A stretch of 64,000 nt of DNA from Tubulanus polymorphus (taxonomy: Eukaryota > Nemertea > Palaeonemertea > Tubulaniformes > Tubulanidae): assembly GCF_964204645.1 (NCBI RefSeq), contig NC_134029.1, positions 20,354,450-20,418,449 on the forward strand, given 5' to 3'. Within the stretch, counting starts at the first letter, position 1. Every line of letters begins with the position of its first letter. The notes under the pieces were generated by a model. That model was not told the origin of the DNA, made no database searches, and saw nothing but the letters and a program-made list of their open reading frames with translations. This document shows positions 40,101 to 46,100 of this stretch, one piece after another. Position numbers and translations under genes: made by a program.

Positions 40101-43100
40101 TAGAAGAAAAAACATAAATGGCATTTATTCCTACTGTCATTTTCACTGACGGTATTTCTACCGGTGGCATTTTCTGCGATGGTATTTCTTACGGTGGCAT
40201 TTTTTCCTACATTTGTTCCGCAGCGCTGACAAATGTTCCAAGTGTGGTTAACACCAGCATTTCGAATAATAATTCCGGGTACTCGCGGTATAATAATTCA
40301 TCTAGTACGGACACAAGTGTTAACAACATATCGAACTGAATTGATGAACAATGCACTCACACGATCTATTAATAATTAATATTGCCGCAATATTTTGTTT
40401 TTAGTTGCTACCGTGGGTTACGTCTTTAAGTTACATAACTACGATAATTCCGTTGGCGTTCGTGCTCGGTTTGACGTTCGTTAAAGATATGCACGACGAT
40501 GTAGTAAGTTGTCCGGAAGGCTGTCGGGAAAACCAACATCACCTATACGTGGACCCCCCCGGTTTTTTTTTTTTTTTTTTTTGTTTTACTTTTTTTCGTA
40601 ACACATCCCTAAAAATCCTAACTTCGTATCTTTAACTTTTAGCAGGTGTTTGGCTCCCGGGAATCTGGTGATTTCGTTCGAGCACTAATTAACATTGATT
40701 GCACTGATTAGGATACGATAGATCGTTTAGATTATTCATTTTAGATGTTATTCATGTTTGAATAATTAGTCTTCGATGCTTTCTCTGTTTCGATCGTAAA
40801 ATGTTGCATAGAATTATTCGGGCATTTTTCGAAAAGTCGAATTAAGCCGCGCGGCTTATGCTATGGTTTCTAAATTTTCCAAATTCAAGAAGCGCATTTA
40901 GAATATCCGTTTCGATTAGCTCTTGGCTGCATTTTTCAAAGTTGGTTCGTTTAACTTTCCGTCGAAATTTTCCGTCTAACATCTTACAACAATGATTACT
41001 CTTTAACCCATGAAGACTCTAAAACGAAGAGTTTAACCTAGCAAATTATTCAACGAAATTCGCTAACTCCGGTGATGGTGACAGTAAAAGAATGGGGTAG
41101 AAAATTGAGTGGGATCTCTGCTTTGAAAAACACAGCCCCCCCCCCCCCTAGCGAATATATGATATCATAGATGGAAACGCTTCGGTTGTCGATATATATA
41201 AATATAAATATATTTGTATATAGCCTGGTGTTTCGTGTGAAGCATTGCTTATGGGTGAATCAGCACTCGGGAATAGGCAAACGTTTGTTTGATTGATCGT
41301 CGATCAATTAGTCGTATTATTGATTGGAAATCGATACATCATCAATTGACGAAATTGATCGATGAATTAGATATTGCGGTTGCTATCTACCCGCGAGTTT
41401 CTTTTTATGGTCGCCGATACGTCTGCTATAGCTAGTGTAGTTCAGTTTTAATGGGGATCGTAGCGTAGAATATCGGTTAGAATATAGTGCGATAGCGAAT
41501 TATTCAGCGCGGCTGTTTTAGGGCTGGGATATCTCGTCTCGTCGCAGCGAGCGCTTTTTATGAAATCCTGTTTCAGAGAAACGAGAAATGGTAGCGATAT
41601 ACGCGATGATTTATCGGGAGATCGACTCTTCACCGAACTGTGTAATGACACTTGCCCAGCGTGTCTCGCGTAGAAACAACGACGACGACGCCCTACGCAG
41701 TTCTTCGATCTTCCGCCATAACAGATATCGAATCAACTTTTCATATATCGTTTTATTTAGACAGGCCACGGCGCGAAACATCAATATTGATTCTCCCATT
41801 CTACCAGAGCATTTCTAATAGACAAATAGCCTTTTTTATTTTTTGCAGATTATTATTTTTTCTTTTTTGCAGATTATTATTATTATTTTTTTCTTTAGAA
41901 AAAACTTCAAAACCCTGCTCGAAATGAATTGAAATGATGTTATGTTTTTTTTTCAAATCTCGGAATTATCTGATTTTGTGTCTTACATCAGATTATACCG
42001 TGGATTTCGTCGCTCACGTACGTTACAACGATCGTACCCCTCGTCGGGGTGCTCGGTCTCACCATGATAAAGGATGCTATTGACGATATCGTAAGTTGAT
42101 TCCTCCGTCACGAGCGTCTCTGACTGCTGCTAGGTGATAGAGCTCTCTGCTCTCTCATTCGCATATGCAAAAACAATTTCATCATCGTCATATTTGAAAA
42201 ATCAACGTTTACATATATTTGGCTGATGATCTGTTAGTTGTATATGTTTTTGGGAGATAAAGTTTTCATTTTTCATTTTACACTTTCGAACACACCGCAA
42301 AAAAATATACTGGTTTGCCTTTTGCCGTTTATTTCAATCACTTTTCAGACTGTCTTCACCTGTTGTACTGAAGTCAGCAACTTCTAATTTCTCTTATGTG
42401 AAATAAACATGCATAAATCGGCTAGTGGCAAAAATCACAATATAATATATACACGGTTGTTTTCACAAACGGACGAAGAGATATCGAAATTCCTCGTACA
42501 AAATTTGTGTGTTTTTCTCAGTTATTTCGTTCATGTTTTCTTTCCGTTTCGAAACTAATATTTCGCTCGATTTAGTTCCGCAGTTGCCACTAGACGGTCA
42601 GATCCGCAACTGTTGGAACTGGGGGGTATGGAAGCCGGTGACATCTGTTATTATGTTTGTCTCCCTTCTTCGTTGCTTAGAAATCTCATCTTAGAGCTTT
42701 TTAAAACAATGCCTAAATAACTTCATCGACTTTCAACTTACTAATAAACCCTTTACATTTCAGATACGTCCCTAAGCTGTACACTACTACGTTCTGTGTT
42801 TGTGATAAACTGTTAACTCTGTAATTCTTTTCAACACACACGTGTATACAAGGAACGTGTATAAAGGATATATTGTTTTTAGCTTCTCCGTCCGTTTGTC
42901 TCAGAGGCGTGACCGGTTTGAATCGCACGATGGCGTCGCGGTAACCAACAGCACTGCCAGCAACTCGTGCAGACATATCCGTTGGAATCGCTGGCCGCGA
43001 TCGCGCGAGTATTTCTGGCCCCTGCTAGATTAGGCCCAGCCCATCATTCCAACATTGGTGCCAGATTCGACCCGAACAAAAACGTCTTATCAGGACTGAG

Positions 43101-46100
43101 CCAAATATAAGCGCTGGTCAAATTATTGCTCACGAATGATTACTGGTTCTGCATTTACTTAGTATCGAGTATGTGAATTAGGCACAGGTCAAATTCGAAT
43201 ATTGGGCCTGATCCGGGGCCAAATCCTCTCCGCGCGATCGCGGCTACGTCATCCGACTGAGAAAAAGACACATCGTACGAAATGTGCAACAATCATTAAT
43301 CCGGTCGTTATTATTTACTTCTTCTTGTCTATTCAGTCGATATCACAGGTCTCCTCATTAAACCCTATATACACGATAGCCCCTCTTATCGGTGTGATAG
43401 GTTTTACTGCTTGTAAAGACATTTTCGATGACGCTGTAAGTGGTGCAGACTCGATATTTCATTGCTATCAATTTCTTCGTAGCTCTCGTATACTGAAACT
43501 GCTTTTCAATGTGTCTATTGGTATGTGTTGGGTTAATCGCGTACGGTACGCGTTGGTGCAGTTGAAAATGATACGCGAGGCGTTTATATGCAAATTGATT
43601 TAGACATGTGACCAGCAGTCATCCAATCACTAGTCGTTCAGCTGGTTCTGTAAATGACCGTCTATATTTCTGCACCAGGAGAAATGACCAAATTACATGT
43701 TTCGCTTGTAGCTTACAAAACGGTAGATCTTGGCGGCGGTTTGACTAAAATTATATACATTTCTGACTAATACACTAGACTCGTACACCGCCTACGACGA
43801 GGGCTTATGAAACATTGTTATTGTGGAGTATTTGATTAACTGTCAAGATCGTTAAACTAACCATAAATCAGTTGACAGGTATCGGGGAACCGTACAACGA
43901 TTGGTGATGGATTCGTATTTTGCGTGCTCGCGTCGATTCAATTCAGTACGCAATGCGAGTGGTAATCTCTGTCGTGGTTCATGTATAAATTTGCCGCATT
44001 GATGCTCCTCTCTCGTTGTGTCAGTCATTTTTCAACTGCGCCAAAACGCTCATTTCATCGCTGCTTAATGTACCCGTAAATTTGGATCGTTCGGTGTCGA
44101 CTGAAAAAAATGGATTTCTCTTACGTCACCCGCGAGAAGTTACGATGTCTTTCGACGTTTTTGTCAAAAGTTTCGATACTTCTACGGACCTGTAAATGAG
44201 GTCCGTGGTATTTTTAAATCGTAATCAATTTTACTAACGTTTTCTAGGAAACTCGTCAATTTTCTATTCTGTAAATTTTTGTTCCCAGCATAGAAAATCG
44301 CTAGCTACGTACTGTACTTGATAGCTGACTTTTCCACTCCTTTTTAACCCTTTCCTTGTGACTCCCTATTTGTGTGGCCCGCTTGAAGATGATTTGAACA
44401 CCTCCACTGAGTCATCTCAACAGTCAAGCGTTGCATTTTGTGAACTGAATAAAAAAGTTACTGAAATTTGCGGTACCAATTCAGTATAGAAAATGTTCAT
44501 GGTGTCGCTTATAGAATTTTTCGCATTTGTTTATCCTTCATTTTCTGGAATTATTGCGATCAGTGGAGTTGAATTGATGCGATGATTACCCGGTACGCGC
44601 AGCGTTCCCTGTTAATAAATACATAGCTCTCAGTTCATAGGTGGCTGTTTTATTTAAAGGTCTTGCCCTGGATTAGTTCATTGACCCCTTTAACGACTAT
44701 CATCCCCCTGGTGGCTGTACTAGTACTTACCGGCCTCAAGGATGCTATAGATGACATAGTGAGTTATTGGTTGGCATGTTTTCTATAGATATCATCGAAA
44801 TATGTCTCGTAACCAAAAAAAGAAAACAATTTGTACGATTCAACCCAACCGACCCTTTTCGATCTTTGAATTTGTGATATGTTGAATTTTACAATTTGTT
44901 TCAATTAGATTTAGACCTTGGTTATCCATTCAGGGTAATCTCGGTTTGTGACGATCATACAGTGATTGAACACGCATGAGTCCGCAGTTTGCCATAGGTA
45001 ATCTTGAATTCATATCTTCTCTCGAAACTAAGCTTGTTAAGATTTATGTATTTGGATTATATTTATGTATTTGGATTATATTTATGTATTTGGATTATAT
45101 TTATGTATTTGGATTATATTTATGTATTTGGATTCAAATATGAATCGAAATTTCAAAGCATGCTTAATTTCATCTGATAAACTGATATTTATTGGCTGGG
45201 TACTAAGGTTAACCCTTTAATCGTCTGAGTTAGACCAGTTAAGGCTGAAACTCGAAGGGCTAGTTGCTAAGTTGAGATTTAAAACCGATCCAAGTCCTTA
45301 ACTTAATAACATAAGACCTTAAAGATTTCTGAACACTATTTTCGCTGAGCTCAGGGTTTGGAAATCTAAACTGATGCATTCGAAAAAACTGGTCTCTAGA
45401 AGATAATTGCGATGGAAATATATGAATTTGTCTATGTTCTTGAAGGGTTGAAATTTGTAACTGTCGTTGAAAACCAGGGGCCAATTTTCAGCAGTATGAA
45501 AGATTCATTGCTATCGATGAAATTTTTGAAACACGCTTTCCCTGAAGTTCAAGAAATAAAGAATTCAGAGTTTGAATTTAAGTTCAAGCGAAATAGATTT
45601 TCTAAACAGCATTGAATTGGAAAAAAAGATATATAATTCAAGATTAGCCGGTGATACCTGTATTTAGAATGTGGTGTTGGATATTATATAATAAAGTTGA
45701 TTGAATGTAATTTATATCGAATCCTTAATTTTGTATCACGTGATTAGAAAATAAGCCGCAAATATTTATCGTTATTTGGCGAATGTTCGTTTATTTAGTG
45801 TAAAAAGTCGTTAAACTTTGTATACAAAAATCGGTGCGATTCAAATTTGAAAAAAAGCGTACAAAGTTTTCCAGACTTTTAACGATGGCATGAATATGCT
45901 TGTTTTTTGCGCGATGCGTTATTTGCCACATTGCATGTACATGTTCGATATGAATAATATATTTCGTATTCATTATTGTTATTGACATTAGGTTAACGAT
46001 CAGAAATATATCAGGCTGGGTTCTCATCCCATTATCAGAGTTGTATTCGACGATGTAGAATTTTCTGTTTCGCAACGTGCGTGATGCACAAATATGACTT

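Follow-up and report, generated by a model that had tools for sequence, protein, structure and literature searches.

The 64-kb window analyzed here, by which we mean the whole stretch of that length and whose positions serve as coordinates throughout, comes from the palaeonemertean ribbon worm (nemertean) Tubulanus polymorphus and carries on its plus strand a nearly complete gene for a P4-ATPase, or lipid flippase, of the ATP8B type. Between constitutive exons 3 and 5 of this gene lie four consecutive homologous exons, 4a to 4d (40405-44758), which encode four versions of the outer turn between membrane helices M1 and M2 and of M2 itself. The cluster, first proposed in a reading of the bare DNA (the original prediction), is real, and the exclusive use of its members is very likely. 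With a probability of about three in four, we consider it an old and functional mutually exclusive exon cluster in an ATP8B-type flippase, from which one of 4a-4d enters each messenger RNA (mRNA) and alters the M1-M2 turn and M2.

Gene model and subfamily assignment

Open frames and splice sites were assembled by hand into the gene model, whose exons are numbered as in the original prediction. Exons 2, 3 and 5-22 are present with in-frame joins, and the model E1-E2-E3-4x-E5-E22 gives 1244 residues without an internal stop whichever of 4a-4d is used as 4x. In the database, phospholipid-transporting ATPase ID-like isoform X2 of T. polymorphus (P0001) matches best; over the 1175/1175 residues compared, from exon 2 to the end, it shows 0 differences from the 4d form and 9 to 19 from the 4a, 4b and 4c forms. 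The parts of the gene are as follows.

20706..20739, plus strand: alternative first coding exon (MSSCWKEELYI), with which annotated isoform X2 begins; exact match to the P0001 N-terminus, then GTAAGT; end counted by hand
33920..34124, plus strand: candidate alternative first coding exon E1 of the model; ATG, open frame, GT donor, in-frame join to exon 2
36895..36953, plus strand: exon 2, constitutive; AG/GT, present in P0001
38293..38406, plus strand: exon 3, constitutive; encodes M1 and ends on the entry-gate Gln (ATP8B1 Q131, ATP8A1 Q88)
40405-40503, plus strand: variable exon 4a, 33 residues; 99 bp, phase 0/0, AG/GT
41992-42090, plus strand: variable exon 4b, 33 residues; 99 bp, phase 0/0, AG/GT
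43337-43435, plus strand: variable exon 4c, the most divergent, 33 residues, Tyr at the ATP8B1 T143 position; 99 bp, phase 0/0, AG/GT
44660-44758, plus strand: variable exon 4d, of canonical type, the copy in annotated isoform X2, 33 residues; 99 bp, phase 0/0, AG/GT
48774..48908, plus strand: exon 5, constitutive; encodes the end of M2 on the cytosolic side (QRHRSDN), then the linker leading into the A domain
49481..58591, plus strand: exons 6-22; DGET, PISL, DKTGT and GDGAND motifs, C-terminal GYAFS; 0 differences from P0001 (4d form)
58589-58591, plus strand: flippase stop TGA

Judged by its sequence, the gene belongs to the ATP8B subfamily of P4-ATPases. The Pfam domain PhoLip_ATPase_N scores 92.9 to 97.0 bits with each of 4a-4d, against a cut-off of 29. 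The top four sequences of solved structure are ATPase IC (ATP8B1), and among the matches listed the named top proteins are mostly phospholipid-transporting ATPase ID or IM, or ATP8B, with ATPase IC, ID and IM being names of ATP8B proteins. The spliced protein contains DKTGT, DGET, PISL, GDGAND and a C-terminal G(F/Y)AFS motif, the last of which has been described for ATP8B1 (PMC11460456). Human ATP8B1 (PDB 8ox4-8oxc, 7py4) is the closest solved relative, at E about 1e-137, and shares the M1 Gln, the T143/T144 positions, PISL and DKTGT. An AlphaFold model of P0001, whose mean predicted local distance difference test score of 54.5 led us to use its local secondary structure only, places a helix at 60-70, a loop, and a second helix at 79-112.

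Anatomy and constraint of the exon 4 copies

All four copies are stop-free, and their 99-bp length, phase 0/0 and AG and GT sites were found exactly where the original prediction had placed them; its range of pairwise identity, 14-24 of 33 residues, was also reproduced on recomputation. Twelve residues are invariant across 4a-4d (S7, L8, T13, I14, P16, L17, V20, T24, K27, D28, D31 and D32), and identity at third codon positions is 7-13/33 between copies, about chance level. By the Nei-Gojobori method, applied to the copies against each other (six pairs), the proportion of synonymous differences is 0.69-1.01, i.e. saturated, with a corrected distance definable for one pair only (1.89), and the proportion of nonsynonymous differences is 0.22-0.41. 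These values point to purifying selection on the exon 4 copies. Furthermore, the ten invariant positions within M2, taken by our choice as residues 13-33, share one helix face (permutation p = 0.00017); its direction deviates by 5 degrees from that of the face conserved among 64 distinct homolog copies (p = 0.0021). Because synonymous sites are saturated while the protein constraint and the helical pattern are kept, 4a-4d look like working M2 helices rather than relics.

A different reading is that only 4d works and that 4a-4c are unused leftovers of an old tandem duplication. 4d alone occurs in an annotated isoform, and 4c is highly divergent, with eight residues (S1, S3, Y12, A15, I21, F23, C26 and A33) absent from 124 homolog copies, a redundant set that includes 4d and was counted by hand from a table of the six commonest residues. 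However, frames, splice sites, the 12 invariant residues and the helical pattern have persisted despite saturation at synonymous sites, and in 4000 simulations with uniform mutation neutral drift to 2 changes per site left a copy stop-free in only ~23%, so that we hold this reading to be improbable.

A recent duplication of exon 4 was rejected, since synonymous sites are saturated and a repeat search of the interval found only short matches (<=32 nt) between its different introns, low-complexity TA tracts aside (in the 20 of 27 families listed). Short tandem repeats with 19-nt and about 40-nt units are present at 45042-45136 and 48471-48653, in the intron between 4d and exon 5. Neither a fifth nor a recognisably decayed copy emerged when both strands of the 64 kb were scanned with a profile built from 4a-4d and four relatives' copies. 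4a-4d themselves reach 83.1-111.6, high by construction, and the highest score elsewhere is 20.5, at a site antisense to 4b; single-strand scans of ten mononucleotide shuffles gave maxima of 8.1-19.4.

Exon 4 in related proteins

Homologs comprised the best 120 of 7938 proteins and two from a later search, 122 in total, a set that is score-biased towards proteins bearing the segment, includes many near-identical insect isoforms and stems from a collection clustered at 90%. The exon 4 block is present once in 120 of them and twice in 2, Littorina saxatilis P0013 and Pinctada imbricata P0032. In both, the units are of 33 residues with the same borders as in Tubulanus, and the canonical SSLTPLTT copy comes last, as 4d does in Tubulanus. 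The original prediction had suggested searching related species for the same four copies; a cluster of the same kind is seen in at least two molluscs, which differ from Tubulanus in that two copies are seen instead of four, the alternative types being SSLNPVAT and SSLPWYTT. Littorina isoforms X1 and X2, taken as annotated by NCBI, differ at 15/1256 residues, all within residues 71-102, where the block occupies 70-102. We know of no alternative M2 exon in human ATP8B1.

In a tree of the 33-residue copies (45 rows, 37 of them hand-picked from the 122 proteins), which is too short for deeper claims and has several high support values on near-basal nodes that are not usable as evidence, Littorina X2 groups with Aplysia and Biomphalaria in a clade of gastropod alternative copies, from which Littorina X1 is separate. 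Two exon 4 versions therefore seem, on this tree, to have been kept apart across distant gastropod lineages. Isoforms that differ only in the block are probably often hidden by the 90% clustering.

The copy of Lineus longissimus P0003 is very like 4d (26/33). In some of the oyster or oyster-like proteins P0018, P0019, P0010 and P0023 the copy is of the WYTT type and in others of the TPLTT type, a hint that more clusters are concealed in the same way.

Residues encoded by exon 4

Alignment agrees with the original prediction that the segment comprises the M1-M2 turn and M2 and that, by comparison with ATP8A1, the QQ/GA gate pair straddles the junction of exons 3 and 4. Exon 3 ends on the M1 Gln (ATP8A1 Q88, ATP8B1 Q131), exon 4 begins with the second member of the pair, and T143 and T144 of ATP8B1 are exon 4 positions 12 and 13. 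By our own count, which assumes that the numberings of ATP8A2 isoforms are offset by 40 residues, we take ATP8A2 K94 and R102 to be position 27 of exon 4 and the second residue of exon 5.

Published work on related pumps gives these positions their roles. An asparagine of M4 and a threonine of M2 (ATP8B1 T143) anchor the headgroup first; as the entry closes, the M1 glutamine and T144 do so (PMC11225554). Another review names the M1 glutamine as the strongest and most specific determinant for phosphatidylserine (PS) among those its authors observed, and K94 and R102 are exit-gate residues of ATP8A2 (PMC12424579). In cryo-electron microscopy, the rotamer of ATP11C Ser91, and of ATP8B1 Thr144, has been linked to phosphatidylcholine versus PS (PMC12723151).

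T13, K27, D28, D31 and D32 are identical in 4a-4d. The roles of these residues, rather than coordinates, lead us to infer that the invariant face of M2 points to the groove. Between copies, the variation falls on the turn outside the membrane and on the remaining faces of M2, mostly off the mapped contacts. Position 12, which sits off the conserved helix face, is Thr in 4a, 4b and 4d and Tyr in 4c; among the first copies of the 122 relatives Thr occurs 108 times, Ala 9 times (in gastropods only) and Ser 5 times, the last in two freshwater mussels and three proteins from the source labelled lgn. Only 4c alters a known headgroup contact, by this replacement of Thr with Tyr at the T143 position. 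It also lacks the conserved turn proline, and the entry half is where its contact-changing residues sit. Most departures of 4a are in the cytosolic half of M2: T6, F25 and M29 are absent from the 124 homolog copies and H30 occurs in at most one. 4b, whose M25 is absent from these 124 copies, and 4d are near the common type.

The original prediction had splicing swap the second residue of the lipid gate and one wall of the lipid path, giving one flippase several lipid preferences. The second gate residue does vary, being aliphatic (L, I or V) in three copies and Ser in 4c; however, the main M1 Gln (ATP8B1 Q131) is constitutive and the M2 face with the substrate residues is the same in all four, so that this part of the proposal is not supported in the form it was given. 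The second gate residue was consequently demoted as the main switch because the stronger M1 Gln is encoded by constitutive exon 3. A changed lipid preference is plausible for 4c, judged from the residues it replaces, and less so for 4a and 4b.

The same invariance and the constitutive M1 Gln favor the view that exclusive splicing is real but that what the copies adjust is the speed, gate dynamics, stability or targeting of the pump and not the lipid flipped. ATP8B1 is already broad in its headgroup choice (PMC10657443), and motion of M1-M2 couples binding to dephosphorylation (PMC11225554). On the other side, 4c alters the T143 headgroup contact, and the Ala of the 9 gastropod copies and the Ser of the 5 others again point to the headgroup site. 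We place this view not far short of even odds.

Returning to one-of-four exclusive splicing, each mRNA would take one of 4a-4d, giving four pumps of ten transmembrane helices that are identical outside the outer M1-M2 turn and M2. 4d would be the canonical version, and 4a, 4b and 4c would keep the face with the known substrate residues and alter the turn and the other faces. With its Thr to Tyr change, lost turn proline and altered entry side, 4c would most likely shift headgroup preference or the gate-closing step; 4a, changed mostly in the cytosolic half of M2, would more likely shift the exit or turnover step.

Probable selection of a single copy

The original prediction stated that the reading frame does not enforce exclusivity, and indeed every combination of copies is in frame (phase 0/0), which led us to reject reading-frame or nonsense-mediated enforcement. 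Steric hindrance was also rejected: the introns of the cluster measure 1224-1488 nt versus 77 nt for the shortest intron in the gene model. With a steric block excluded by introns of 1.2-1.5 kb, exclusivity must be under active control. Donors of 4a-4d are GTAAGT or GTGAGT and score 5.6-9.0, versus 4.9-10.6 for 20 constitutive sites, while their acceptors, at 3.9-7.7, fall in the lower half of the constitutive range of -6.2 to 12.5 (20 sites).

4a-4d are homologous, stand in tandem, agree in length and phase and have valid splice sites; exon anatomy, constraint and relatives together support the mutually exclusive cluster in a P4-ATPase that had been proposed. As to one copy per transcript, the single T. 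polymorphus isoform contains 4d only, and the relatives have one copy in 120/122 and two in 2/122, with the block exchanged between the two Littorina isoforms. All 15 lgn-source proteins carry one copy each; since they come from contigs of 2862-6908 bases with unbroken frames, we infer that they are assembled transcripts.

Were the copies ordinary cassette exons, includable in combination and not strictly exclusive, the in-frame combinations and the two genome annotations with two copies in one protein would be accounted for. Both two-copy proteins are listed as hypothetical, however, the Littorina one stands beside the one-copy isoforms X1 and X2, which come from a contig equal in length to its own, and none of the lgn proteins has two. 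Furthermore, each additional copy would bring in a further membrane helix and reverse the topology of all that follows, making double inclusion destructive although in frame; this would give selection a reason to enforce exclusivity. Cassette use is in our judgment very improbable.

Several results weigh against an exclusive, lipid-switching cluster or narrow what can be drawn from the data. 4d is the only copy known from an annotated T. polymorphus isoform, and one copy per mRNA in this species is a conclusion drawn from exons and relatives. The count of 0/122 homologs without the block is biased, as segment-less proteins score lower. PhoLip_ATPase_N still scores 84 bits in an artificial control without exon 4, so that this match tests the gene and not the exon. 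A search for 4c-like sequence in the protein collection gave 4 candidates, none at E <= 10 at the sensitivity used. In the introns of the one species scanned, no docking-selector RNA pairing rose above shuffles: the best weakest-pair energies were -21.6 (5' intron) and -25.2 (3' intron), and six shuffles of each gave -20.5 to -21.7 and -21.5 to -28.3. Finally, the M2 face with T144, the exit-gate Lys and D31 (the exit-side acid) is unchanged in all four copies, which speaks against exon 4 as a general lipid switch.

Known systems and significance

Exclusive exons that switch substrate are already known. One case is coq-2, whose exons 6a/6e in helminths, annelids and molluscs (PMC7434440) are likewise exclusive and homologous, reshape the core of an enzyme in a lipid pathway and change the substrate it takes, lophotrochozoans again being among the carriers; it differs in being a polyprenyltransferase with two copies, and its substrate switch has been shown experimentally. 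Exon 10 of the oyster alternative oxidase (PMC5589949) is also a tandem duplicated exon whose less conserved copy is changed near functional sites, in this case a 3' terminal exon of a mitochondrial oxidase. Dscam1-type clusters share the tandem array and one exon per mRNA and differ in that no docking-selector pairing is demonstrable in the Tubulanus flippase. Drosophila dATP8B is reported to have seven predicted isoforms, described as differing near the N-terminus (PMC3961175). No published mutually exclusive exon cluster in a P4-ATPase was found among the titles, abstract openings and term counts considered, which covered the listed share of the results and few subscription papers; the lipid-flippase member of this class thus appears to be unreported.

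More broadly, and tentatively, since we would sooner doubt it than accept it, an old splicing-controlled cassette in lophotrochozoan ATP8B flippases may swap the M1-M2 turn and M2 and thereby switch pump action at the entry gate, the headgroup Thr having been changed repeatedly (Tyr in nemertean 4c, Ala in gastropods, Ser in others) with the adjacent Thr, the exit-gate Lys and the acids fixed. If so, a single gene, with no need of duplication, would let membrane asymmetry differ from one cell type to another. Which residues set the lipid choice of flippases is an open question, on which engineered or disease mutations have supplied much of the evidence; comparing natural versions of one helix in an otherwise identical pump would separate effects of entry gate, groove and exit. 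Should the isoforms differ, the lipid asymmetry of membranes would be settable by splicing, as coq-2 splicing sets quinone type.

Ends of the flippase gene and other features of the window

The first exon of the flippase gene is uncertain, being either the X2 start at 20706 or the model E1 at 33920, for which no database support was seen. These two candidate first coding exons (20706-20739 and 33920-34124) are ~13 kb apart, which suggests alternative promoters.

At the other end, the stop TGA is followed in frame (58589-58864) by CAA CTA and then by 90 more open, acidic codons ending in FVYVP. The CAA CTA fits the CARYYA read-through context. The 90-codon extension has no above-noise similarity to the 122 relatives (best E 3.3); several mollusc tails end in hydrophobic motifs comparable to FVYVP.

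Elsewhere in the window, the minus strand carries at 13240-14421 an intron-less open frame for a La-type RNA-binding protein (393 residues stop to stop; La, RRM_1 and RRM_3 domains) and at 1643-10018 exon-like pieces of a beta-lactamase-family serine hydrolase gene, with PF00144 on 9689-10018, a weak DUF3471 match below the cut-off on 1643-2437, and no domain found by the domain scan on 2708-3055. Open stretches at 4676-5023 (minus strand) and 62309-62488 (plus strand), one near each end of the window, are similar by eye (TRKYF..RYM.S.ATA) and are probably copies of an interspersed repeat.

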